Origin: a virus
Virus record (IMG/VR): IMGVR_UViG_3300041405_000129
Location: 1 to 43,082 of that record
DNA length: 43,082 nt
Direction: 5' to 3' (one strand)
Shown: positions 1,640 to 39,144 of the stretch, in pieces
Layout of the letters: each line of letters begins with the position of its first letter
Position numbering within the stretch: the first letter of the stretch is position 1
The notes under the pieces: generated by a model
Seen by the model: only the letters and a program-made list of their open reading frames with translations
Database searches by the model: none
Told to the model about the DNA's origin: nothing
Position numbers and translations under genes: made by a program

Positions 1640-1668
1640 TTGCAACCGGCGTTAATTATGCTTAGTCT
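1640..1668 (+). promoter_or_regulatory. Putative promoter for the plus-strand replication operon
   Basis: TTGCAA (1640-1645) and TAGTCT (1663-1668) are separated by 17 bases in the gap between the divergent genes starting at 1613 and 1704. The -10 is weak (three of six positions). A degenerate likeness to the phage's other promoters is possible but not convincing. Confidence 0.35.
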
Positions 1669-1683
1669 TGCCCCACATCACAA
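1655..1683 (-). promoter_or_regulatory. Putative promoter for the helicase operon
   Basis: On the minus strand TTGTGA (1683-1678) and CATAAT (1660-1655) are spaced by 17 bases, 40-70 bases ahead of the helicase ATG at 1613. It overlaps the plus-strand promoter candidate, so the two divergent operons may compete for RNA polymerase. Confidence 0.45.
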
Positions 1684-1703
1684 CCCCAACAGGACTACAA
1701 CTG

Positions 1704-2612
1704 ATGCAAATTTCTCTCAGCTTCAACCCCGCAGAAGACAAGCGCGAACACGTCGCCAGCGTGGTCGATGCAGTTTACGGCGTTAAGACTTCCCCAAAGC
1801 AGACAGCGGTTGCGGATGCCCCAGTTACTGCGCAACCTACGGCTGTCGCAGAACCTTTGCAGCCTTCCCAGGTGAACGCCCCTGCCCTGGTCGCTGAATT
1901 CCCAAACCCCTCGATTGCCCCTACTCAGGTGGCATCGGTTACCCCTGTCACGTCTTCCCCTGTCGGTGTCGACCTCGACAAGAATGGTATTCCTTGGGAC
2001 GCTCGCATTCACTCGGGTGGTGTGAATGACGACGGCACCCACAAGAAGAACAAAGATGGTTCGTGGGCCAAGAAAAAGGGCGTTGATGATCTGACCATCA
2101 GCACTATCACCAAAGAGCTGCAAAACCTGATGGCTGCTCAGATTGGCCACGCTGCGCCGCCTGCCGGCCTGCCTGCTGGTGGTGTGCTGGGAAACCCGGT
2201 GAACGTTCCGCATCAGGTGGCTGTGCCGCTCCCAACGGACCCAAACGCTTTTATCGCTCAGCCGATCAATCCAGCGCCTGTAACTCAAGAGGCTGCGCCA
2301 ACGCTCGCCCCTAACATCGCACCAATGCCGATGAGTGATGCCCCGCAGCTTGCGCCGAACGTTGCGCCTATGCCGGTCCCAATGCCTGCACCTGCCGCAG
2401 CACCAACCGACTACCCGAGCCTTGCCGTGTGGTTGGCACCGAACCTTGAAGAGTCCGGCGGCAAGCTCAAGCGCGAGCACGTTGAGCACTTCTGCGCACA
2501 GTGCGGCATTGTCAACGCTCAGGGTGTCGGTGACTTCTCACTGGTTGCTCAGCGTCCTGACGCGGTTGCCTGGCTGCACCAAGCATTCACCGCCCAACTG
2601 GCAGCGATGTAA
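1704..2612 (+). CDS. Pro/Ala-rich hypothetical protein with IPWDxRIHSGG-type motif
   Basis: The product has 302 aa. The ATG at 1704 has AGGA nine bases upstream; an in-frame TTG at 1668 is less likely. Near residues 91-105 the segment IPWDARIHSGG is followed by a basic KKNKDGSWAKKKGV stretch, a pairing I recognise from uncharacterised phage proteins encoded near replication genes. The remainder is low-complexity linker rich in Pro, Ala and Val, with repeated APN(I/V)APMP units. A folded C-terminal segment of about 70 residues contains CAQC. It is the first gene of the plus-strand operon and ends two bases before the DUF2800 gene, so a replication or recombination accessory role is plausible. 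No enzymatic motif is visible. Confidence 0.8.
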   Translation: MQISLSFNPAEDKREHVASVVDAVYGVKTSPKQTAVADAPVTAQPTAVAEPLQPSQVNAPALVAEFPNPSIAPTQVASVTPVTSSPVGVDLDKNGIPWDARIHSGGVNDDGTHKKNKDGSWAKKKGVDDLTISTITKELQNLMAAQIGHAAPPAGLPAGGVLGNPVNVPHQVAVPLPTDPNAFIAQPINPAPVTQEAAPTLAPNIAPMPMSDAPQLAPNVAPMPVPMPAPAAAPTDYPSLAVWLAPNLEESGGKLKREHVEHFCAQCGIVNAQGVGDFSLVAQRPDAVAWLHQAFTAQLAAM

Positions 2613-2614
2613 TC

Positions 2615-3772
2615 ATGGAAACCCCACAATTCACATTGCGCCCTAGCGCTGCGGGGTTGTGGGTTCGGTGCGCGGGCTATGCCACCATGGCTGCCCGCTT
2701 TCCCGAACTCCCCGGCGACAACGAGGTGCGCGAGGAAGGCACGGCGGCGCATTGGGTAGCCTATGAGATTGGCAACAATCGACCAGTACCAGAAGGGACC
2801 GTAAGTCCCAACGGGGTCGAGGTTACCGAGGAAATGCTTGACGGTGTTGCTGAGTACCTGGCGGTGCTGCGCTCTTGGGGCTCGCCGGTTTACATGGAAT
2901 CCCCGGTTGCAATCCCGAGCGTGCACGCTGAGTGTGGCGGCACCGTTGACGCATGGTCATGGGACGCTGCCAATCGCATTATGCGCGTTGCGGATTTGAA
3001 GTTTGGGTATGTTCCGGTAGATCCTTTCGAACTCTGGCAACTCATTTGCTACGTTCGCGGGGTGCTTGACTACCTGCAAGCAATCTATGGGCGGTTCACC
3101 GAGCACTTCACGGTTGAAATGATCATAGTGCAACCCCGTGGCTATGGGCACGATACTGTGAAGGTCTGGCGCACCAACAGCGAGAAGCTGATCCCGTACA
3201 TGACCACGCTGCGCACGGCTGCCAATGCAGCGGTTGCATTCCGTGATGGTAAATTTGATTTAACTGTTGGTAGTGAGCGCGGTGCATTTACTGCAGGCCC
3301 GCACTGCATGAACTGTTCGGCCAACGCGAATTGCGCAACCTTGCAAGCCGCATCGCTTCAACTGATCGACGTGTCAACGGATCATGGGGCACTTGAGTTG
3401 ACGGCTGACCAGGCCGCTGCTGAGCTGCGCCGATTGGACCGCGCTATCAAGGTGATGGAAGCTCGCCAATCTGGACTTGAGGGCAAGTTGACTCACGCAA
3501 TCCAGAAGGAAGGATTCATTCACCGCAACTTTGAAATGGGGAGCGGCAACGGTCGGGTAGTTTGGCAGGAAGGTAAAGCCGTGCAGGCTATTGCACTTGC
3601 CAAGGTGCTTGGATTCGACATCGCTAAACCGCTACAGGCTTTGACGCCCACCCAGGCCAAGGCCAAAATACCCGGCACCGTGCTGGACGCTTTCACGGTA
3701 CGTAAACCTGGCTCGCTGAAACTTCGGCGGCTCGCTGACAATCACGCTGACAAACTTTTCAATCAGGAATAA
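2615..3772 (+). CDS. DUF2800 family Cas4/RecB-like PD-(D/E)XK nuclease
   Basis: The product has 385 aa. The N-terminal RPSAAGLWVRCAGYA followed by EEGTAAHWVAYE matches the start of DUF2800 proteins. The core has VADLKFGYVPVD (the D-x-K of the PD-(D/E)XK site) and IIVQPRG. A C-terminal cluster CMNCSANANC, together with the N-terminal Cys, could hold a Cas4-like iron-sulphur cluster. It probably acts as a 5'-3' exonuclease preparing ssDNA for recombination or replication. It sits two bases after the preceding gene and five bases before the ssDNA-binding-like gene, the usual DUF2800-DUF2815 pairing. Length is normal for the family. The family is clear; the biochemical role is inferred. Confidence 0.88.
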   Translation: METPQFTLRPSAAGLWVRCAGYATMAARFPELPGDNEVREEGTAAHWVAYEIGNNRPVPEGTVSPNGVEVTEEMLDGVAEYLAVLRSWGSPVYMESPVAIPSVHAECGGTVDAWSWDAANRIMRVADLKFGYVPVDPFELWQLICYVRGVLDYLQAIYGRFTEHFTVEMIIVQPRGYGHDTVKVWRTNSEKLIPYMTTLRTAANAAVAFRDGKFDLTVGSERGAFTAGPHCMNCSANANCATLQAASLQLIDVSTDHGALELTADQAAAELRRLDRAIKVMEARQSGLEGKLTHAIQKEGFIHRNFEMGSGNGRVVWQEGKAVQAIALAKVLGFDIAKPLQALTPTQAKAKIPGTVLDAFTVRKPGSLKLRRLADNHADKLFNQE

Positions 3773-3777
3773 AGACA

Positions 3778-4962
3778 ATGCCTCTTAAACTTCTCTCCCC
3801 TGTTGGCCGTATCGTTCAAGGTAACCCGCTGTTCAAATCGCCCGTCATGGACGACGTGACCAAGCAACAGAAAATTGGCAAGGACGGCCAACCGTCGTTC
3901 AACTGGTGGATTACCGTAGCCTTCGACAAGCGCGACCCTGACACCTGGCCGATGATCTGCGCTATCAAGCAAGAAGCGGCGAGCGCCTATCCGCAACTGT
4001 TCCCCCAAGGCTGGAACCCGAACGCCCAAAATGAGGGCTGCGTGCGCCCTGACTTTGCATTCAAAGTGGTCGACGGCGACGGCACCGACCTCAACGGCAA
4101 GCCACACAGCAACAAAGAAGGTTGGGGCGGGCACTACATCGTCAAAATCAGCACCTACGCTGGCACTATGAAGTGCTACGACGGTCTGCAAAACAACCTG
4201 CCGATCACCGACATGGAACAGATCCATACCGGCAAATACGTTCGCGTCTCGCTGGATATCAAGGGCAACGGCTGGACGGGCCAAGGTAACAGCAAACCAG
4301 GTTTGTTTGTGAACCCTGATGGTGTGCAGCTCGTTGGCCACGGTGCCAAGATCAGCGGCGGTCCTGATGCCGATACCATGTTTGCACAACCTGTTAGCGG
4401 CTACATCCCGCCTGGCATGTCGACCACTGCGCCCGTTGCGGCTATCTCGATGCCAGGTCACCAGCCTGCACCGCAGCAAGCTATGCAGATGCCGCAAATG
4501 ACCCCGGCACCACAAGCTCAGCCGCAAATGCAGATGCAAGCCCCGCAACCATCTGCCGCACCCGTGTACACCATGACCCCGGCAGCTCAGGGCTACACCC
4601 GTGAGCAGTGGCTTGCCAACGGCCAGACGGACGAAAGCCTTATCGCCGCCGGCTACATGACCGTCAGCACCCCAGCACCTGCACCGGTCATGGTGGCCCC
4701 TCAGCCGCAAATGCAGATGCCTGCACCGATGGGTCAACAGCCTCAGATGCAAGCCCCGCAACAACCGGCTATGGTGGCCCCTCAGGCCGCACCGCAACCC
4801 CAAATGCAGATGGCTGTACCAAACCCGGCGTTCACTCAGTCGGCGATTGCACCGACCTACACCATGACCCCGGCAGCTCAGGGCTACACCCGTGAGCAGT
4901 GGCTTGCCAACGGCCAGACTGATGCATCATTGATCGCAGCAGGTATGATGCTCGTTGCCTAA
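3778..4962 (+). CDS. DUF2815-type ssDNA-binding-like protein with repeated C-terminal tail
   Basis: The product has 394 aa. Residues 1-190 match DUF2815, a family related to T7 gp2.5-like ssDNA-binding OB folds (FNWWITVAF, GGHYIVKISTYA, TGKYVRVSLDIKGNG). After residue 200 comes a long Gln/Met/Pro linker with repeated PQMQMQAP blocks. A motif YTREQWLANGQTD appears twice, the second copy at the extreme C-terminus, encoded by a perfect 62-bp direct repeat. The start ATG lies in AAAGACAATG, a context shared with several other genes here. A terminator follows. It probably coats ssDNA for the polymerase and helicases. The duplicated tail may be a partner-docking module, as SSB tails often are; that is inference. 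Confidence 0.85.
   Translation: MPLKLLSPVGRIVQGNPLFKSPVMDDVTKQQKIGKDGQPSFNWWITVAFDKRDPDTWPMICAIKQEAASAYPQLFPQGWNPNAQNEGCVRPDFAFKVVDGDGTDLNGKPHSNKEGWGGHYIVKISTYAGTMKCYDGLQNNLPITDMEQIHTGKYVRVSLDIKGNGWTGQGNSKPGLFVNPDGVQLVGHGAKISGGPDADTMFAQPVSGYIPPGMSTTAPVAAISMPGHQPAPQQAMQMPQMTPAPQAQPQMQMQAPQPSAAPVYTMTPAAQGYTREQWLANGQTDESLIAAGYMTVSTPAPAPVMVAPQPQMQMPAPMGQQPQMQAPQQPAMVAPQAAPQPQMQMAVPNPAFTQSAIAPTYTMTPAAQGYTREQWLANGQTDASLIAAGMMLVA
4567..4628 (+). repeat. 62-bp direct repeat inside the SSB-like gene, copy 1
   Basis: This segment is identical to 4858-4919, an offset of 291 bp or 97 codons. It encodes YTMTPAAQGYTREQWLANGQ plus the next codon. The reading frame is kept in both copies. Confidence 0.95.
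4858..4919 (+). repeat. 62-bp direct repeat inside the SSB-like gene, copy 2
   Basis: Second copy of the segment at 4567-4628. It forms the last part of the protein, ending about 14 residues before the stop. Zero divergence suggests a recent duplication or gene conversion. Confidence 0.95.
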
Positions 4963-4982
4963 CTGATCCTTCCCAACCTACA

Positions 4983-5010
4983 AACCCCGGCGAGTCCGGG
5001 GTTTTCTTTG
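4983..5010 (+). terminator. Rho-independent terminator after the SSB-like gene
   Basis: The stem AACCCCGG/CCGGGGTT has a CGAGT loop and runs into TTTTCTTT. It lies 20 bases after the SSB-like stop and only about 12 bases before the polymerase ATG. It would therefore attenuate polymerase transcription rather than close the operon, because no separate promoter is visible between them. Confidence 0.85.
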
Positions 5011-5021
5011 AGTGCACCAAT

Positions 5022-6965
5022 ATGGGCAATTACTCCCAGGCGCCAACAGACGTTGAATGCTACCGCAACTATTTTCTAATCAAGGCCCCCGGCTACAGTT
5101 TTGAGGTACGCCCGCACTGGCAGCTCCCCAACGTGATGGGGCTGCGGTTCTTCCTGGCATCGCACGAAATCATCACGTTCAACGGCAAGAACTATGATGA
5201 ACCGATGATTGCTGCATGCCTTCACCTCATCACGAGCAATCCAGCGATCACGCCCACCCAGCTTTGCGCAGCGCTCAAGGCGTACAGTGACAGCATCATT
5301 GTTGGGCGTGTCAGGGGCTGGCAGTTCTACAAGCAGAACAACATTCCCGAACTGACCTGGCTCAAGCACATCGACTTGTTTGAGGTAGCACCAGGCGTGG
5401 CCATCGGCCTCAAAATGTACATGGGGCGCATGCACTCAGAAACCCTGCAAGACCTGCCAGTTGATCCAATGGCAAACCTGACTGATCAGGAAATGACCAT
5501 TATTGAAAACTACTGCGGCAATGACTTGGCCGGCACGCAAAAGCTGAAGGACACCATCAAGGGTCGGCTTGAGCTGCGCCGCCAGATCAGCGCAGACCTC
5601 GGCGTTGATGTAATGAGTAAGTCAGACGCTCAGATTAGCGAGTCAACCATTATTGCAAAACTTGGGTTCCGCCCGCAGAAGGTGAGCTACCCGCACGGCT
5701 ATCAGTTCCACTACCAGGCCCCGCCGTTCATCAAGTTCAAGACGCAGCAGATGCGTGACGTGTTGGCCACTGTGCTGACTCACGCGTTTACGGTCAACGA
5801 TGTCGATCAGCTCAAAATGCCTGGCGACACTGATGAGGTTCTTGACGCTGACGGCCGCAAGATCAAAACAGGGATCATCATTCCCCCGGCGGTCGCCGCT
5901 TTGCGCGTGCATATGGGTTCAAGCGTTTATAAGTTCGGCATTGGTGGACTGCACAGCCAAGAAAAGTCGGTATTTCACCTGACCGAACCGGGCAAGTGGT
6001 CGCTGTCTGACCATGACGTTGCGAGTTACTACCCGTCGCTCATCTTGCTGATGAACATGTACCCCGGCGCGATCGGTGAGGCGTTCATTGAGATTTACCG
6101 CAGGGTCTACACCGAACGCCTACACGCTAAAAACATGGCAGGTGCGTGCAAGAAGGCCGGCGACAGCGAGGGCGCCAAGCGTTGGAAGACCATCGCAGAC
6201 AGCTTAAAAATTGTGCTTAACGGCGCGTTCGGCAAACTCGGCTCTAAATACTCAATCCTGTTTGCCCCAGAGCTGCTTATCCGCACCACCATCACCGGCC
6301 AGCTTGCGCTACTCATGCTCATTGAGGATATGGAACTGGCAGGTATCCCGGTGATATCGGCGAACACTGACGGCATTATCGTCAAGACGCCCCACGGTAT
6401 GGAAGCAACCCGCGATGCCATCCTCAAAGCATGGGAAGCGGCCACCGGCCTTGAGACTGAGGAAACCAAATACACCGCCGTGTTTAGCCGAGACGTGAAC
6501 AATTACATTGCGTTCAAACCTGACGGCACGCACAAGGCCAAAGGGTGCTTTGGTGAGTCTGGCGTCAGCCCCGAGGCCAGCCCAACCGGCAAGAACCCTG
6601 ACATTGATATCTGTTCTGACGCGGTGATTGCGTACCTGGCCAGGGGCACGCCGCTCTATACGACCATCAGGCAATGCACGGATATCAGACGCTTCCTCAC
6701 AGTGGCCACGTGTGCCGGTGGCGGGTATTGGGAAGGGACCGGTGAGGTGTTGGGTAAAACGGTTCGCTGGTACTACGGCAAGAACTCAACGCACGCCATC
6801 AGGTCAACCAAGCTACGCAACGGCCAGACCCAGGGCAACATGGTTGCGGGCAGTACCGGCAGTGTGCCGTGCATGCGCCTACCTGCTCAGCTCCCGGCAG
6901 ACATCGACTATGAGTTCTATGAGCGGGAAGCCTACAAAATGCTGGGAACAATTGGTGTTCGATAA
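5022..6965 (+). CDS. Family B DNA polymerase with 3'-5' exonuclease domain
   Basis: The product has 647 aa. Exonuclease motifs: Exo I D10-x-E12, Exo II FNGKNYDEP (N54, D59), Exo III YCGND (Y164, D168). Polymerase motifs: A DVASYYPSL (332-340), B KIVLNGAFGKLG (396-407), C SANTDGIIV with NTDG at 448-451. All expected acidic catalytic residues are present, so both activities should work. At 647 residues it is shorter than most cellular and T4-like members (about 800-900). It replicates the phage genome with the AEP primase/SF3 helicase encoded elsewhere. The ATG at 5022 is needed to include Exo I but has no good Shine-Dalgarno sequence, and a terminator hairpin lies just upstream, so expression is probably kept low. 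Confidence 0.94.
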   Translation: MGNYSQAPTDVECYRNYFLIKAPGYSFEVRPHWQLPNVMGLRFFLASHEIITFNGKNYDEPMIAACLHLITSNPAITPTQLCAALKAYSDSIIVGRVRGWQFYKQNNIPELTWLKHIDLFEVAPGVAIGLKMYMGRMHSETLQDLPVDPMANLTDQEMTIIENYCGNDLAGTQKLKDTIKGRLELRRQISADLGVDVMSKSDAQISESTIIAKLGFRPQKVSYPHGYQFHYQAPPFIKFKTQQMRDVLATVLTHAFTVNDVDQLKMPGDTDEVLDADGRKIKTGIIIPPAVAALRVHMGSSVYKFGIGGLHSQEKSVFHLTEPGKWSLSDHDVASYYPSLILLMNMYPGAIGEAFIEIYRRVYTERLHAKNMAGACKKAGDSEGAKRWKTIADSLKIVLNGAFGKLGSKYSILFAPELLIRTTITGQLALLMLIEDMELAGIPVISANTDGIIVKTPHGMEATRDAILKAWEAATGLETEETKYTAVFSRDVNNYIAFKPDGTHKAKGCFGESGVSPEASPTGKNPDIDICSDAVIAYLARGTPLYTTIRQCTDIRRFLTVATCAGGGYWEGTGEVLGKTVRWYYGKNSTHAIRSTKLRNGQTQGNMVAGSTGSVPCMRLPAQLPADIDYEFYEREAYKMLGTIGVR

Positions 6966-8249: not shown

Positions 8250-8716
8250 GCTCGCACAGCGGCGTCATAGCGCGCCGGCCATTCATCAGGGTGGGGCTTG
8301 CCAGGGCGCCATACGCGCAAGTAAAGCTCCCATGCTGCCTCACATTGACCGACCGCAGGAAGCGCGAAGGGATCGCCGTACAGGTTGAGCCTGGCGAACG
8401 CAGCGGCCAGCACATCGTCACGTTCAAGGTTGGACCAGATAACCTCACGGTCCCATGGGCAGTTGCGGGCTGCGCATACTTGCCGCGCCAGATCGCGAAC
8501 GGTTTTTAGCGGGTGTTCCATCACGCCCGTAACGCCGCCATTCTTTTCGAACTGCCAGAAGCCACGAGCAGGACCGTTACCCATCTGTCGCCGGTGCTGC
8601 CAGTCTTTGGACTCTTGCGCGCCAATGGCTAGCAACTGCACCAGCGCAGACCGCGTGGTCATCTTGGAAGGGAGAAGGCTAAGCGCCTCGTTGATGGCGA
8701 GAAGTGGAAGGTTCAT
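8240..8716 (-). CDS. Endolysin, lysozyme-like peptidoglycan hydrolase
   Basis: The product has 158 aa. The segment IGAQESKDWQHRRQMGNGP followed by GFWQFEKNGGVTGVM resembles lysozyme-like phage endolysins, with the Glu in GAQES as the likely catalytic acid. No signal peptide is evident, so release would depend on a holin. It sits between the membrane protein at 8713 (ATGA overlap) and Rz (ten-base overlap), the standard place for an endolysin. The exact bond cut is not deducible from the sequence. Confidence 0.82.
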   Translation of the reverse strand: MNLPLLAINEALSLLPSKMTTRSALVQLLAIGAQESKDWQHRRQMGNGPARGFWQFEKNGGVTGVMEHPLKTVRDLARQVCAARNCPWDREVIWSNLERDDVLAAAFARLNLYGDPFALPAVGQCEAAWELYLRVWRPGKPHPDEWPARYDAAVRACA

Positions 8717-31464: not shown

Positions 31465-31488
31465 AATCTCAGCTCTCAAATGTGAAAA

Positions 31489-31773
31489 GGTTACAAGGTG
31501 GGGTTACAAGCTCGTAACCGCTACAGCCCTTGTATTCCGTGGCCTCCAGCCAAAAGGTTACAGGTTACAAGTGGAAAAAATCTAAATACACATAAATACG
31601 AGACACATGCATAACACTCATGGTGGCCACCTATCTATAGCTCTTCCTGTGTAGCTACTTTTCTATTCTACTTGTAACTTGTAACCTTAAGAGATAGAAA
31701 CCCAATAAAACCAAGGGGTTGGTGGGTTACAAGTGGCCTCTAGCTTGTGACCTATCTTGTAACCCTTGTAACC
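31489..31773. repeat. Eleven GGTTACAAG 9-mers flanking an AT-rich core: candidate origin or operator
   Basis: The 312-base gap between terS and the primase gene holds no gene. Plus-oriented copies start at 31489, 31502, 31556 (one mismatch), 31563 and 31725. Inverted copies start at 31511, 31671, 31744 (one mismatch each), 31678, 31756 and 31765. Seven of eleven are perfect. The left cluster (31489-31571) is mainly plus and the right cluster (31671-31773) mainly minus, around an AT-rich centre (31572-31670). Two inverted copies are back to back at 31756-31773. The layout is like iteron origins; an activator or repressor array for the late operon is the alternative. Confidence 0.85.
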
Positions 31774-31776
31774 TGA

Positions 31777-34401
31777 TCAGTTATTAACCAGTTCCGCAAG
31801 ATGTTGAATTTTCGTTAACTCCAACATCGATCTCAGCGTGTCGTTGCTATCACTCGCCACCGTCCCACGCTTCCACCACACCCGGTGCGCTTTCCCGTCC
31901 CACTTGATCACCCCCTTAGGCGAGAACCCCAAACGCGTCAACATGTGGCTAACCGCCGTAGTTTTCGGAATGTCCATCCCGTCCTGTACGCAGATGGTCC
32001 TCATAGCCGCTGCTAGCGCGCTGGAGCTTAAAACAAACTTACCGACACCCACGGCCCCGGTTTCGATGCATTGACGCGCCACGGCCTCATGAGCGTCTTC
32101 CCCGCCCGCTTGCATTTCAGCTTTCTCGCTGGTGTGAGGGGCTTTTGAGTTTGGCTTGAAATTGGCGCTCACCGGGTACTCAACAAAGAACTTGCGCCAC
32201 TCACCGCGTCGGGTGTCCTGCATGCTGTCAAACATCATGTCGTAGTGACCGGCTAACCCTTCGGTTGTCAGGCTCAATGCGCCAGCCAGGTCGCTCAAAT
32301 CACTGAAGGGTGAAAAGATCACCCACCAACGACGGTCGTTGTCTTCCAGCGGCACCGCGTCCACAAAGTTGGTGAATGCGATGTAGTTGGTGACGTTGAT
32401 GATTGACGCACCGGCGGGGCGACCCTTGCGGTTAATCTTGAGCGTGTTGTTGGTGATGGGCTCTTTGATCGCGTTGGCCACGGCATAGCGCTTGGCCCCG
32501 GTAATCATCAGTTCCTCAAAAGCGGTGACGCATGAGCCCTCTTGCCAGTCCCCGAAATCTGAGCATACCAACTTGGCCCCAACGCTGGTTGCGTTGGCAA
32601 ATCCCATCACCGCTTGCATGACGTTAATGATGAGCGACTTGCCGTCACCGGGCATGCCTTTGATGATTGGTGCATACCTGCATTTCTTGCCAGGGTTCTG
32701 CGCGCACCAGGCCATCCAGTCCAACAGGTTGAGATAGACCTCATTGCGGTTGCCGCACAGCGCTTGCAGGTGGCGCAGAAACGCTTGAATGGCATCAATT
32801 CCACCTTGGGTATAGCCGAGGGCGATTTCGGGCACCGTGCTCGGGCTGTACAGGTTGGCGTACCACCGGCCCTCATGATTAAAGATGCTCTCTTTACCTG
32901 GCAGATACATGCAGTCACCCACGGTGGCCGTGTTCCAGCGCTGTAGGCACCACTTGGCCGCGTCCTCACGATCACCGTTCGGCTTCTGCGGCATCATGCG
33001 CTCATACTGCGCATTGAACGCGGTGCGGCTCATGGTCTGAGCGCTCATCAGGTCAAAGAAGCAATCGGTGGCCATGACGTACACGTGGCGGTTGGCCCAC
33101 TCAGGAATAATGCCGCCGTCTTCGTCCTCAACCACCTGCAAGCGCACCATGGCCTTGCAGTCACTGATGCTGACCGGGAAATTCCAATCGGTCATTCGCT
33201 TCTTGATCGCTGCTGCCAGCCAATCCCGGTCAAGCATTGCAATTGAGCGATCAGCAGCTATCTGGGGGATAACGTCGTTGCGCAGGTCCGCGTCATCGTT
33301 GCAGCTCATGATAAGGTCAAAATATTCCTGCCGGCTCACACCCGCGGCAAGGGTCACAGTGGCGTCCAGTTTAGCCACGGTTTCCTTGTCCTGGCACACG
33401 TTGCGGGTTTGCTTGCAGGCACGGTCAACCGTCAGCTCAGCCAAGTAGGTGCGGTGATCGGTCCACTTGGGGCGCACCAACTTTGACGCCCACATCAAGC
33501 GCACCATCCGCTCAGCATCGCACCCCGTCCAGAACGCCAGGTGGGAAGCAAGCGCGAAATCAACCTCAGTGCCCCCATAGGGCAATCCGTCGCTGCGGCC
33601 CTCATCAGGATAGTGCTGCGCGAGCACCGGAACGTTGCAGGTCCACAAATCCGCAAAGGTCGCTTTACCACCAAACATGGCAGCACCCGACCGCGACTGC
33701 ATCGCGCGCCTTATCAGCTCATTGTCATCGGTGGGGCCATTCCAATCTGCGCGCGGGCCATTGCCCACCAGCATGGCAACAGACTGCTCAGGTTTGAAAA
33801 TGTTATCGACGATGTACTGTGCTTGAGCCCCAAGGTGTGTATCGGCAGACCCCCAAGCCTGGCCGCTCAAGCCGAACGCGATACCGCGACCGCTGGTGTA
33901 GAACTCAAGATCATTGCCAGGGTGCTCAGCGTTCCATGCTTGGGTTGGTCGTGTGCGGTGACCAGCCGGCGGGCAACCTCGACCTATAAGGTGGATGCCC
34001 TTTCCGCTAGAACTGTACTCAAAGAAGGCCCCTGGCAAGTTTTGGTAAAACCAGCTTGCCCAGGGTGTGAGCTGACCATCAGCACCAACACACCCGTCGA
34101 CATCCAAGAACCAATAACCGCAATCAGCAGTAACCATAAAACCGAGCGTGTAGACATAGCCGTCAAGTCTCCCAAAGTGAGCCGCAAGCTGAGCCGTGGC
34201 TACCTCATATGATGTCCACGCGTACGGTTTTTGAACGTCTGGACCTTTTAACTTTCCGTTCTCATCGAACTCAATTCGTCCATCAGGGTGCGCAGGCACC
34301 TTTAAGTATTTCCCCGGTTTCTTTGGATCTGGCGCCAAGCGCCACACAAACCATTGATTGATGGCGGTCATACCCGCCAAAGCAGTTGATAGCATTGTCA
34401 T
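31777..34401 (-). CDS. AEP-type primase-polymerase with SF3 (DUF5906-like) helicase
   Basis: The product has 874 aa from the ATG at 34401 (ATG ACA ATG; AAGG upstream). The N-terminal primase has D100-x-D102 (FLDVDG) and SSSGKGIHLIG with H137, the catalytic set of archaeo-eukaryotic primases. The C-terminal helicase has Walker A GMPGDGKS (582-589), then FGDWQEGSCVTAFEELMI and ITNNTLKINRKGRPAGAS, as in SF3/D5-like helicases. It primes and unwinds at the phage origin, and the repeat array lies right after its stop. A 75-bp structured leader precedes it. Confidence 0.92.
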   Translation of the reverse strand: MTMLSTALAGMTAINQWFVWRLAPDPKKPGKYLKVPAHPDGRIEFDENGKLKGPDVQKPYAWTSYEVATAQLAAHFGRLDGYVYTLGFMVTADCGYWFLDVDGCVGADGQLTPWASWFYQNLPGAFFEYSSSGKGIHLIGRGCPPAGHRTRPTQAWNAEHPGNDLEFYTSGRGIAFGLSGQAWGSADTHLGAQAQYIVDNIFKPEQSVAMLVGNGPRADWNGPTDDNELIRRAMQSRSGAAMFGGKATFADLWTCNVPVLAQHYPDEGRSDGLPYGGTEVDFALASHLAFWTGCDAERMVRLMWASKLVRPKWTDHRTYLAELTVDRACKQTRNVCQDKETVAKLDATVTLAAGVSRQEYFDLIMSCNDDADLRNDVIPQIAADRSIAMLDRDWLAAAIKKRMTDWNFPVSISDCKAMVRLQVVEDEDGGIIPEWANRHVYVMATDCFFDLMSAQTMSRTAFNAQYERMMPQKPNGDREDAAKWCLQRWNTATVGDCMYLPGKESIFNHEGRWYANLYSPSTVPEIALGYTQGGIDAIQAFLRHLQALCGNRNEVYLNLLDWMAWCAQNPGKKCRYAPIIKGMPGDGKSLIINVMQAVMGFANATSVGAKLVCSDFGDWQEGSCVTAFEELMITGAKRYAVANAIKEPITNNTLKINRKGRPAGASIINVTNYIAFTNFVDAVPLEDNDRRWWVIFSPFSDLSDLAGALSLTTEGLAGHYDMMFDSMQDTRRGEWRKFFVEYPVSANFKPNSKAPHTSEKAEMQAGGEDAHEAVARQCIETGAVGVGKFVLSSSALAAAMRTICVQDGMDIPKTTAVSHMLTRLGFSPKGVIKWDGKAHRVWWKRGTVASDSNDTLRSMLELTKIQHLAELVNN

Positions 34402-34414
34402 TGCCTTATTAACG

Positions 34415-34489
34415 AGAAAGCCCGTAACACTCTGGAAGGCTGCCAAGCTCCAGGGGTCAGTACCCCTGCCAGAGTGTTACGGGCTTTCT
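34415..34489 (-). promoter_or_regulatory. 75-bp structured leader: 21-bp perfect inverted repeat with inner hairpin
   Basis: Bases 34415-34435 and 34469-34489 are exact inverted repeats of 21 bp. Inside, CAGGGGT/ACCCCTG (34451-34468) forms a second stem with a 4-base loop, and AGCTTGGCAGCCT may form a small third one. The element lies in the leader of the primase mRNA; the ribosome-binding site and ATG follow within 15 bases. No T-tract follows, so it is not a simple terminator. It could be a riboregulator, a protein-binding RNA, a priming signal or a mini-transposon relic (no target duplication seen). Confidence 0.85.
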
Positions 34490-34513
34490 ACTGAATGGTT
34501 GAACTTGGCACCG

Positions 34514-34542
34514 GGAGTAGACCACAAATTACGGGCATTAAA
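34514..34542 (-). promoter_or_regulatory. Cassette promoter for the primase gene (site 2)
   Basis: TACTCC (34519-34514) follows a 17-base spacer GCCCGTAATTTGTGGTC (34536-34520) that matches the site-1 spacer at most positions. The -35 position is TTTAAT, formed by the T-tract of the terminator just upstream. A degenerate member; it may need an activator. Confidence 0.5.
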
Positions 34543-34564
34543 AAGCCCCGACAGTGCGGGGCTT
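34536..34564 (-). terminator. Terminator ending the predicted small RNA
   Basis: Stem AAGCCCCG/CGGGGCTT (34543-34550 and 34557-34564) with a 6-base loop and TTTTTAAT on the minus strand. It ends any transcript coming from 34644. Confidence 0.85.
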
Positions 34565-34645
34565 GAGGTGCGCTTGGTTAGAGCGCCGGTTGCATGGGGT
34601 AACCTCGCATTGTCGGGGTGGGTAGGTAAAACCTTTACAGCATCA
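34541..34645 (-). ncRNA. Predicted phage small RNA of about 100 nt
   Basis: Lies between a cassette promoter (34652-34680) and a strong terminator (34543-34564) with no credible reading frame. Internal pairing is visible: GCGCT/AGCGC around CTAACCA, and GGTT/AACC. The 348-base gap 34402-34749 thus holds, in transcription order, a terminator, a promoter, this RNA with its terminator, a promoter and the structured leader. The existence of the RNA is inferred from signals only. Confidence 0.5.
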
Positions 34646-34651
34646 GAGAAC

Positions 34652-34680
34652 CCAATAGACCACAAATAACAGACAAAGAA
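34652..34680 (-). promoter_or_regulatory. Cassette promoter for the small RNA (site 3)
   Basis: TATTGG (34657-34652), 17-base spacer GTCTGTTATTTGTGGTC (34674-34658), then TTCTTT at -35, merged with the T-tract of the preceding terminator. Spacer agrees with site 1 at 13 of 17 positions. The -35 is weak. Confidence 0.5.
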
Positions 34681-34713
34681 AAGCCCCGGTGCTGGGGAAA
34701 GCAACCGGGGCTT
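34676..34713 (-). terminator. Terminator after the RMF-like gene cluster
   Basis: Stem AAGCCCCGG/CCGGGGCTT (34681-34689 and 34705-34713) with a 15-base loop, followed on the minus strand by TTTTCTTTG. It ends the unit that starts at 37340. Confidence 0.88.
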
Positions 34714-34749
34714 GAGGTGTAGCCAAGCAATGACAATGCACGGGCGACT

Positions 34750-34911
34750 TTACGCACTCGCCTTAGCACTGTCAACTATCGCTGCGTCTTTCTCGGTCCA
34801 GCCCTGCTGCCACTGACGGCGCTCCCAATCCTTGCAGGCTGGTGGCGGTGTGCAGGGCTTGCCGTTGCGGCGCTGACTGGCCCCGCCGTGATACCAACGT
34901 GTCTGAGTCAT
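34750..34911 (-). CDS. RMF-like small protein 1
   Basis: The product has 53 aa: MTQTRWYHGGASQRRNGKPC, then TPPPACKDWERRQWQQGWTE and a short acidic end. G-x-x-x-x-R-x-x-GK-P followed by a W-x-x-GW block resembles ribosome modulation factor. It is the last gene of its unit; its start overlaps the previous stop as ATGA and a terminator lies 40 bases downstream. It may bind ribosomes or rRNA; this is inference from pattern. A Cys pair (C20 and C26) is a difference from RMF. Confidence 0.7.
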   Translation of the reverse strand: MTQTRWYHGGASQRRNGKPCTPPPACKDWERRQWQQGWTEKDAAIVDSAKASA

Positions 34912-38056: not shown

Positions 38057-38320
38057 TCAATCCAAACCAGTCTCGGGCGGTGCAAGGCGCACCCTGTTTG
38101 CCATCCGTTCGAAAGTTTCGGCCAGTGCCTCACGGCGCTCTTTGGACTTTGGCAACCAGAAGGTTACCGCGCTACGGTCGTCATCCTCGGGCGGATGGTG
38201 CAAGCGCTCGCTACTGTGCAGGATCATTTGCACGGCGCTGTAGGTCAACCCGGTGTTCGACACCTTGTGAATCTCAACGACTTCGCTTGTCAACTCCTGG
38301 CTGTAAACGTTGATTCTCAT
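38057..38320 (-). CDS. Small conserved-looking hypothetical protein
   Basis: The product has 87 aa: MRINVYSQELTSEVVEIHKV, TGLTYSAVQMILHSSERLHH, DDDRSAVTFWLPKSKERREA. I recall similar small proteins in other phages near ParB-like genes but know no function. Probably an alpha/beta fold. It overlaps the ParB-like gene stop by four bases. Confidence 0.72.
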   Translation of the reverse strand: MRINVYSQELTSEVVEIHKVSNTGLTYSAVQMILHSSERLHHPPEDDDRSAVTFWLPKSKERREALAETFERMANRVRLAPPETGLD

Positions 38321-39144
38321 GCTCGCACCTCATGCACTTCTTTCAATACTAGATTCAAAACCTGCAAACGGGTTTCGTCATCAAACTCAACCATTGCCGC
38401 AGCAGCATGAATCAGACGCTCTACCAGGGCCTCAGGGATGCGCTTAGGTCTGAGCACGGCGTTAGTCACCCGAGTCTTGCCGATCGCCTTGGCCTCAACG
38501 AGAGCTGCACCCAGCACCGCCCCAGCCTTGTCACCGTGAGTCTTCACAGCCTGCGCGGCAATAGTTGGTTTGACCTCACCGGCCTTGACCATTTCGTGCA
38601 CGTCGGTGTTGCCGCTGGCCAGGGTAAGGACGCGTTGAATCGTGGCCAACTTCTCACCGCTGCGGTCAGCTATCTGTTGCGGTGTCCAGCCAAACCCAAG
38701 CAGCTTGTTATAGACCCGCCCGAGCCCGAGCACGTCAACTTCGGCACGCTTGGTGCTGGTTGCCTGGCGCAACAGTTGCTCAGCGTCATTGCCGACAAAA
38801 GGTTTGACTGATACCCACGCTTCAAGAATTGTCGGGTCATCCTTGTTTGGGGTGCGGGGTAACGTCCCGCGTTCGTCCATCTTTTTAAAGGCAAAGCGGC
38901 GTGTGTGCCCCTGTACAACCCACACGCCACCCTCAGCACGCGGCACAACCTCAAGCGCCTCAACGGTGCCACCAGCTTCAAGGTACGCCACCAGCGCGTC
39001 AACGTCCTCTTGATACTTTGGCGAATTGTAGTCGCGAACGATGTTGAAGCCTGGTCGCTCGTGGATGTCTTCCAGACGAACGCTGTTGGCTTCACCGCGC
39101 TTTACGGTGCCGTCGTGACGCATGGATTTAAAGGTTGGTTGCAT
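38317..39144 (-). CDS. ParB/Spo0J-like DNA-binding protein
   Basis: The product has 275 aa. The N-terminal ParB-like domain has VWVVQGHTRRFAFKKM (the G-x-x-RR-x-x-A box). Residues about 150-200 (GFGWTPQQIADRSGEKLATI) form the helix-turn-helix. The last part is helical. No partner ParA is seen, so segregation is unlikely; a CTP-dependent DNA-binding regulator or nuclease-related role is more plausible. Starts in a TGACAATG context. Confidence 0.82.
   Translation of the reverse strand: MQPTFKSMRHDGTVKRGEANSVRLEDIHERPGFNIVRDYNSPKYQEDVDALVAYLEAGGTVEALEVVPRAEGGVWVVQGHTRRFAFKKMDERGTLPRTPNKDDPTILEAWVSVKPFVGNDAEQLLRQATSTKRAEVDVLGLGRVYNKLLGFGWTPQQIADRSGEKLATIQRVLTLASGNTDVHEMVKAGEVKPTIAAQAVKTHGDKAGAVLGAALVEAKAIGKTRVTNAVLRPKRIPEALVERLIHAAAAMVEFDDETRLQVLNLVLKEVHEVRA

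Follow-up and report, generated by a model that had tools for sequence, protein, structure and literature searches.

Plasmid antisense RNAs have a promoter of their own, on the opposite strand. The C4 and CI RNAs, by which the temperate phage P1 and the satellite P4, respectively, silence operons of their own, are known as immunity RNAs. The C4 RNA is about 77 nt long, is made by RNase P and has three stems with the loops a′ and b′ (PMC5320573). By pairing with sites upstream and downstream of itself, the CI RNA of P4 brings about premature termination of the transcript to which it belongs, and the IsrK RNA of Gifsy-1 is a prophage leader whose action on the transcript carrying it is both in cis and in trans (PMC4825925). 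According to the plasmid attenuator principle, an RNA bound to the nascent leader favours a terminator hairpin before the replication gene (PMC3753616). Phage P1, which served as a yardstick, has a promoter, a1 and b1 within 22 nt, the C4 RNA of 77 nt and then a2/b2 near the start of icd, and the duplex between the inner part of C4 and a1/b1 has −21.1 kcal/mol and shows the two-block pattern also reported below. Rfam recognises the CI RNA of P4 as a C4-family RNA (8420-8507, 74.9 bits) and lists an a1b1/isrK-like RNA at 8615-8705, with the transcript running toward the alpha primase. The leaders of phage P1 (L282, 4231-4312) and P4 (L283, 8615-8705) are labelled by Rfam as both c4-a1b1 and isrK, suggesting that the two families describe one kind of leader.

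The locus described here lies in a virus record of 43,082 bases, which was analysed as a whole (the window). A preliminary description of this DNA had pointed to a perfect 21-bp inverted repeat at 34415-34489, and the repeat is confirmed: the arms at 34415-34435 and 34469-34489 are perfect complements of 21 nt each with 33 nt between them, and without gaps they can be extended at best to 32 nt at 88%. About 1e-6 perfect repeats of 21 bp with arms within ~100 nt would be expected by chance in 43 kb (43082 x ~100 / 4^21). The minimum free energy of the plus strand of 34405-34510 is −55.2 kcal/mol vs −30.0 ± 3.4 in 200 shuffles (z −7.4), and the minus strand, which is the coding strand, also folds. 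The 7-bp hairpin and the possible third stem proposed earlier are both present on the minus strand (CAGGGGU/ACCCCUG and the short GCU/AGC, respectively). The functional strand of the element is the minus strand, and the element sits in the leader of the primase mRNA. The conserved element reaches 20 nt further upstream than the 75-bp repeat, to 34509, so that its extent had been drawn too narrowly; complementarity between its loops and the 5′ end of the message, as well as a U-rich tract, had been missed, and these change the likely mechanism. The features are listed in the order of transcription, where alignment A1 comprises 13 distinct sequences, the window and 12 relatives.

34536-34565, minus strand: intrinsic terminator, AAGCCCCG...CGGGGCTTTTTAA, directly upstream of the promoter (from sequence)
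34516-34521, minus strand: −10-like hexamer TCTACT with extended TG, 6 nt before GCCAAG (by consensus match)
34501-34509, minus strand: site A, GCCAAGUUC, with 9 pairs to its partner A′; predicted to span +1 to +9 of the primase mRNA and invariant in its core across alignment A1
34489-34494, minus strand: site B, UCAGUA, whose partner is B′ in the P2 loop; its last A also opens P1 (alignment A1 and pairing count)
34469-34489, minus strand: 5′ arm of stem P1, 21 nt (sequence and covariation)
34451-34468, minus strand: P2 hairpin, CAGGGG-UACUGA-CCCCUG; the loop UACUGA (34457-34462) is B′ (fold and covariation)
34436-34450, minus strand: P3 and junction, GAGCUUGGCAGCCUU; A′ is GAGCUUGGC (34442-34450; fold, covariation and pairing count)
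34415-34435, minus strand: 3′ arm of stem P1, 21 nt (sequence and covariation)
34411-34419, minus strand: U-rich tract UUUCUCGUU, terminator-like, overlapping the base of P1 (T-tract score 3.11)
34404-34407, minus strand: Shine-Dalgarno sequence AAGG, 8 nt to ATG 34395 (from sequence)
31777-34395, minus strand: primase gene, encoding NrS-1 HBD and DUF5906 domains; ATG 34395-34393 is the likely start (Pfam, PHROGs DNA primase and comparison with L010)

RNAalifold recovered stems P1, P2 and P3 from alignment A1. In the named structure, 94.8% of the stem cells are paired and 18 of the 28 stem pairs have both sides changed, values that 0 of 500 shuffles reached for either measure, and only 40-51% of the stem cells paired when the partners were slid by 1-3 columns. 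That the stems are kept while their sequence varies across the 13 sequences points to a structured RNA, and the non-Watson-Crick stem cells on the primase-sense strand (16 G-U and one A-C, in sequences that are not independent) favour a minus-strand RNA over a DNA structure. An RNA with a three-way junction and under selection had been proposed in the preliminary description, and the covariation check that it had named beforehand as its refuting test came out in favour of the proposal, since relatives carry compensatory changes and an inverted repeat at the same place. From these comparisons of sequence, an RNA structure of the leader is near certain.

Close relatives of the primase are encoded on ten IMG/VR contigs. 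An inverted repeat of 19-25 bp, with differing arm sequences, is found at the same place in nine of the nine contigs with a whole leader (L002-L004 and L006-L011); the L005 contig begins inside the element, and L012 has the primase end only. In L004 and L006 an extra gene lies between the element and the primase, and the element remains promoter-proximal. This inserted gene, which starts MIISATGHRPDKLGGYG-like and lies between leader RNA and primase (2176-2625 in L004 and about 7528-8000 in L006), is by reading a putative SLOG/YpsA-like gene. Pattern scans added L098 (on the same contig as L008), L256, L272, L063 (with L265) and L271. L256 and L272 are primase leaders, and their primases are 61% and 58% identical to that of the window, respectively. 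The L063 element heads an operon of an HD-domain-like gene, so labelled from a reading of the sequence, followed by a DNA methylase, and the L271 element heads an operon in which a DNA methylase gene precedes one for a primase/helicase-like protein. The element is absent from primase relatives below about 45% identity (L375-L387, Psp6 and Silvanus) and from 80 loci with methylase relatives of L271. A loose pattern, GCCAAG...CAGTA...CTTGGC, gave mostly chance matches; a tighter pattern led to the real new members, and across 298 Pseudomonas genomes it yielded nothing credible. The same holds for model R1 in six genomes, four of them Pseudomonas, that had been reached via chance loci.

Each genome has one clear copy of the element, to which the L008 contig adds a sub-threshold match of 16 bits, and the copy stands at the same place in all close primase leaders, contrary to the earlier suggestion of a recent arrival or a mini-transposon. 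The dispersed copies for which a search had been proposed were not found among phage and plasmid records, where the DNA of the element gave chance matches only (19-34 nt). No Rfam 15 family matches the element at gathering score. Near-threshold Rfam matches at 34533-34782 (STnc100, asX2, atoC and others) fall on neighbouring terminators and lie far below the gathering scores. The element is a real, conserved and hitherto undescribed structured RNA that is absent from Rfam 15 and could be added as a family.

Upstream of stem P1 the leader reads GCCAAGUUC-N6/7-UCAGUA. The first block, site A, shows antiparallel complementarity to GAGCUUGGC (A′, in P3), and the second, site B, to UACUGA (B′, in the P2 loop). 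In alignment A1, 99% of the A:A′ cells are paired, and for A:A′ and B:B′ together the value is 97.4% vs 16-37% in slid controls. In both L063 and L271 one U-A pair per helix has become C-G, a change on both sides, at columns for which the search pattern had not fixed the partner; the covariation of A:A′ and B:B′ may rest on one evolutionary event. One B:B′ pair is broken in L272, and the altered loops of L010 and L256 still pair, with AAUCAGU (7 bp) and AUCAGU (6 bp), respectively. Sites A and B are near-invariant, unlike the specificity loops of C4, with a conservation that is inflated in L063, L271, L256 and L272 because the search pattern fixed most of A and B. The duplex between leader and core has predicted energies of −19.5 to −25.6 kcal/mol (−22.1 in the window); shuffled leaders average about −9 kcal/mol, and 0-3 of 5000 match the value of the real duplex. 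Judged from these counts and energies, the loops are likely to pair with the beginning of the message. A scan of the window genome that allowed G-U pairs found no comparable A/B site pair downstream of the element, and its top pair on the coding strand was A/B themselves.

In the window and in 12 of 12 relatives tested, a −10-like hexamer stands before site A at a spacing of 6 nt, or of 7 nt in two of the sequences, so that A should be +1 to +9 of the transcript. L063 and L271 have good −35/−10 pairs (TTGACG-17-CACAAT and TTGCTA-17-CATAAT, respectively), and the TG of an extended −10 is present where the −35 is poor. From consensus and conservation we infer that transcription starts at site A, and the mRNA should open with the stretch from A to B, ~21 nt long. 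Nearly all primase relatives have a similar terminator-like hairpin ahead of the leader, and the terminator isolates the leader promoter from upstream transcription. Terminator and promoter also form a module that occurs twice in the window, at 34518-34570 and 34656-34719 (33 nt at 82% identity, with CGGGGCTTGAGGTG twice), and in relatives differing small genes lie between such modules, as if at a cassette site.

The absence of a terminator T-tract, reported earlier, is doubtful. The base of P1, AAAGCCC...GGGCUUU, continues as UUUCUCGUU, which ranks in the top 0.6% of positions following GC-rich runs; its T-tract score of 3.11 compares with 3.89 and 4.38 for two clear neighbouring terminators and with 2.1-4.8 in the relatives. 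Across the relatives a P1 base of the AAAAGCCC...GGGCUUUU type leads into UUUCUCGUU or UUUUUCGUU, or into UUUUUCUUUU in L271, with U-tracts that are weak in some (L002 and L063). P1 shares with intrinsic terminators a GC-rich stem directly before a U-rich tract, and has an inner part of 33 nt in place of their short loop (3-8 nt); the standard terminator scan demands a short loop and therefore does not list P1. The start codon had been placed about 14 bases beyond the element, and the first ATG, 34401, is indeed 13 nt away. The likelier start is ATG 34395, which is in frame with it, because L010 lacks an ATG at 34401 and AAGG is better spaced for 34395.

The plan of the element is that of the C4 RNAs of phages P1 and P7 in several respects: a three-stem RNA of about 75 nt is closed by a long stem P1 with a three-way junction, and b′ precedes a′, with their complements a and b lying in the same transcript, close to its 5′ end and in the same order. 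The stretch from A to B measures 21-22 nt here and 22 nt in phage P1, and the window's pairing energy of −22.1 kcal/mol lies close to the −21.1 of phage P1. By contrast, C4 has a separate UUCG-type hairpin, b′ in a 12-nt loop and a single-stranded a′, whereas the element has two hairpins only, with B′ in the first loop (4-7 nt) and A′ in the second. A and B abut stem P1 here and are about 66 nt away from it in phage P1, where C4 lies upstream of the icd-ant operon of a temperate phage. With the covariance model RF01695, neither the window nor any of eight relatives had a match at the element (E <= 10), against 74.9 and 68.8 bits for P4 and phage P1, respectively, and RF03163 (c4-a1b1), which gives 51.0 bits on phage P1, likewise had no match at the element. 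P1 begins AGAAAG and lacks the GGW start for 5′ maturation by RNase P, and no clear second target of the a2/b2 type, with b2 at a ribosome-binding site, was found in the downstream scan.

As in the P4 CI system, the RNA lies in the leader of a transcript toward a primase, alpha in the case of P4, and has complementary sites in the same transcript. P4 differs in having a terminator-like hairpin with a U-run between the leader site and the CI RNA, a second downstream site and an integrase, none of which was found here, and in the several genes that lie between CI and alpha. The consensus hairpin loop UUGGCA of IsrK (RF01394) resembles A′, but there is no match at E <= 10 and IsrK regulates an antirepressor; the likeness of the A′ hairpin to the c4-a1b1/isrK hairpins (loop UUGGCA, 6-8 nt) may be chance. 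Hence, with no model match, different hairpins, no GG start and no clear second target, the element is C4/CI-like in plan and not a member of the family, and the likeness reflects either convergence or a very old common origin.

Our preferred reading, to which we would give somewhat less than an even chance, is that the element is an abbreviated C4/CI-like self-targeting leader whose target in trans is the nascent primase mRNA, with attenuation as the probable mechanism. The transcript would start at A, pass B and then fold into P1 carrying the B′ hairpin and a weak A′ hairpin, and in the finished fold A and B would form a free 5′ tail with B′ and A′ exposed. Geometrically, B:B′ is impossible inside a single P1-closed molecule because B abuts the base of the 20-bp P1 and B′ lies beyond its top. 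B:B′ has to form between two molecules, or before P1 closes, and A:A′ alone might form within a P1-closed molecule. Terminated or processed leaders would build up as the number of phage genomes rises, and their loops would bind A and B on new leaders in trans. Such binding would remove the competing A:A′/B:B′ pairing and let P1 close, and closed P1 with its U-tract would terminate transcription before the primase, the net effect being less primase and a negative feedback on replication. We infer the termination, the action in trans and the feedback from these features, which together suggest that the leader is an RNA brake on phage DNA replication. The proposed logic is that of pT181-type attenuators, in which an RNA-bound nascent leader favours a terminator ahead of the replication gene, with the difference that the sense and antisense parts are here in one transcript.

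The main rival to attenuation in trans is a co-transcriptional switch working in cis only, in which A:A′/B:B′ against P1 decides between termination and read-through and the choice is set by the speed of RNA polymerase, a ribosome or a ligand. In folds without the 3′ arm of P1, A:A′ (8-10 bp) is part of the minimum-energy structure in nine of nine sequences tested, and the later closure of P1 gains about 18-27 kcal/mol; the U-tract suits such an attenuator, and one molecule suffices for the pairings. However, A′ and B′ lie in loops that are exposed after P1 closure and follow the b′/a′ order of C4, as a trans-acting RNA needs, and no ligand-like conserved pocket is apparent; we regard a switch confined to cis as rather doubtful. 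Since the predicted leader is short (about 100 nt) and offers a single target, a single predicted start and compensatory mutations that are clear, the choice between cis and trans is directly testable. An element for processing or stability, with P1 as an RNase III substrate or a 5′ barrier maturing the primase mRNA in the manner of the early-gene leaders of T7, seems unlikely: it accords with a near-perfect duplex of 19-25 bp whose structure is kept while the sequence varies, but leaves the conserved loop sequences and their complementarity to the 5′ end unexplained.

A variable stem next to the gene, with loops and a junction of conserved sequence, might also mark the binding site of a phage protein, such as the primase itself, that represses translation, and in 11 of the 13 sequences the 5′ GCC is also able to pair with GGC at the Shine-Dalgarno sequence. 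Yet the element also heads operons that do not begin with a primase gene (L063, with its HD-domain-like gene and methylase, and L271, with its methylase), the leader complementarity is unaccounted for, and the Shine-Dalgarno sequence lies outside the stems; a protein-binding site is quite improbable on this evidence. The translational switch raised in the preliminary description is possible as such, and the same position of the Shine-Dalgarno sequence outside the main structure speaks against it. A DNA element, be it a single-strand initiation site, an attC-like site, a mini-transposon or a replication origin, would agree with the position upstream of the primase, the perfect arms and a likely iteron origin on the other side of the gene. 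We consider it very improbable given the excess of G-U over A-C cells on one strand, the lack of dispersed copies and a conserved part that begins at the predicted transcription start, and the single-strand initiation site of the preliminary description is disfavoured on the first and last of these grounds. An attC site was rejected, as the structure belongs to the transcript and the core, GTTACGG, departs from GTTRRRY.

Returning to attenuation in trans, a more specific and more speculative version of it would have a single promoter serve a self-targeting attenuator, the terminated leader being the antisense RNA that terminates later copies. A non-integrating phage would in this way meter its primase with one leader, and the module would have moved among replication operons that are unrelated to each other (primase; methylase; HD-domain gene and methylase). 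No PF00589-type integrase was detected in the window record or the ten relatives, records that may be incomplete, and lysogenic immunity, the known use of C4, is therefore unlikely here. If the reading is true, a compact relative in design of C4/CI, heading a primase operon with no integrase detected, would mean that the same logic also meters lytic DNA replication. The early region encodes a ParB-like protein (38317-39144, phrog_1033), for which a phage-plasmid life style was considered and set aside, as no ParA-type ATPase was found. Just past the end of the primase gene lies a cluster of eight GGTTACA iterons, which occur in both orientations (31483-31779); it is likely a replication origin. 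Iteron clusters of a similar kind are found behind the primase in L006, L010 and Stenotrophomonas phage Silvanus (L250), and the crr repeats of P4 occupy the same position, downstream of alpha. A replication block encoding an exonuclease, a Gp2.5-like SSB and a DNA polymerase lies on the plus strand at 1668-6965, opposite in orientation to the minus-strand primase operon.
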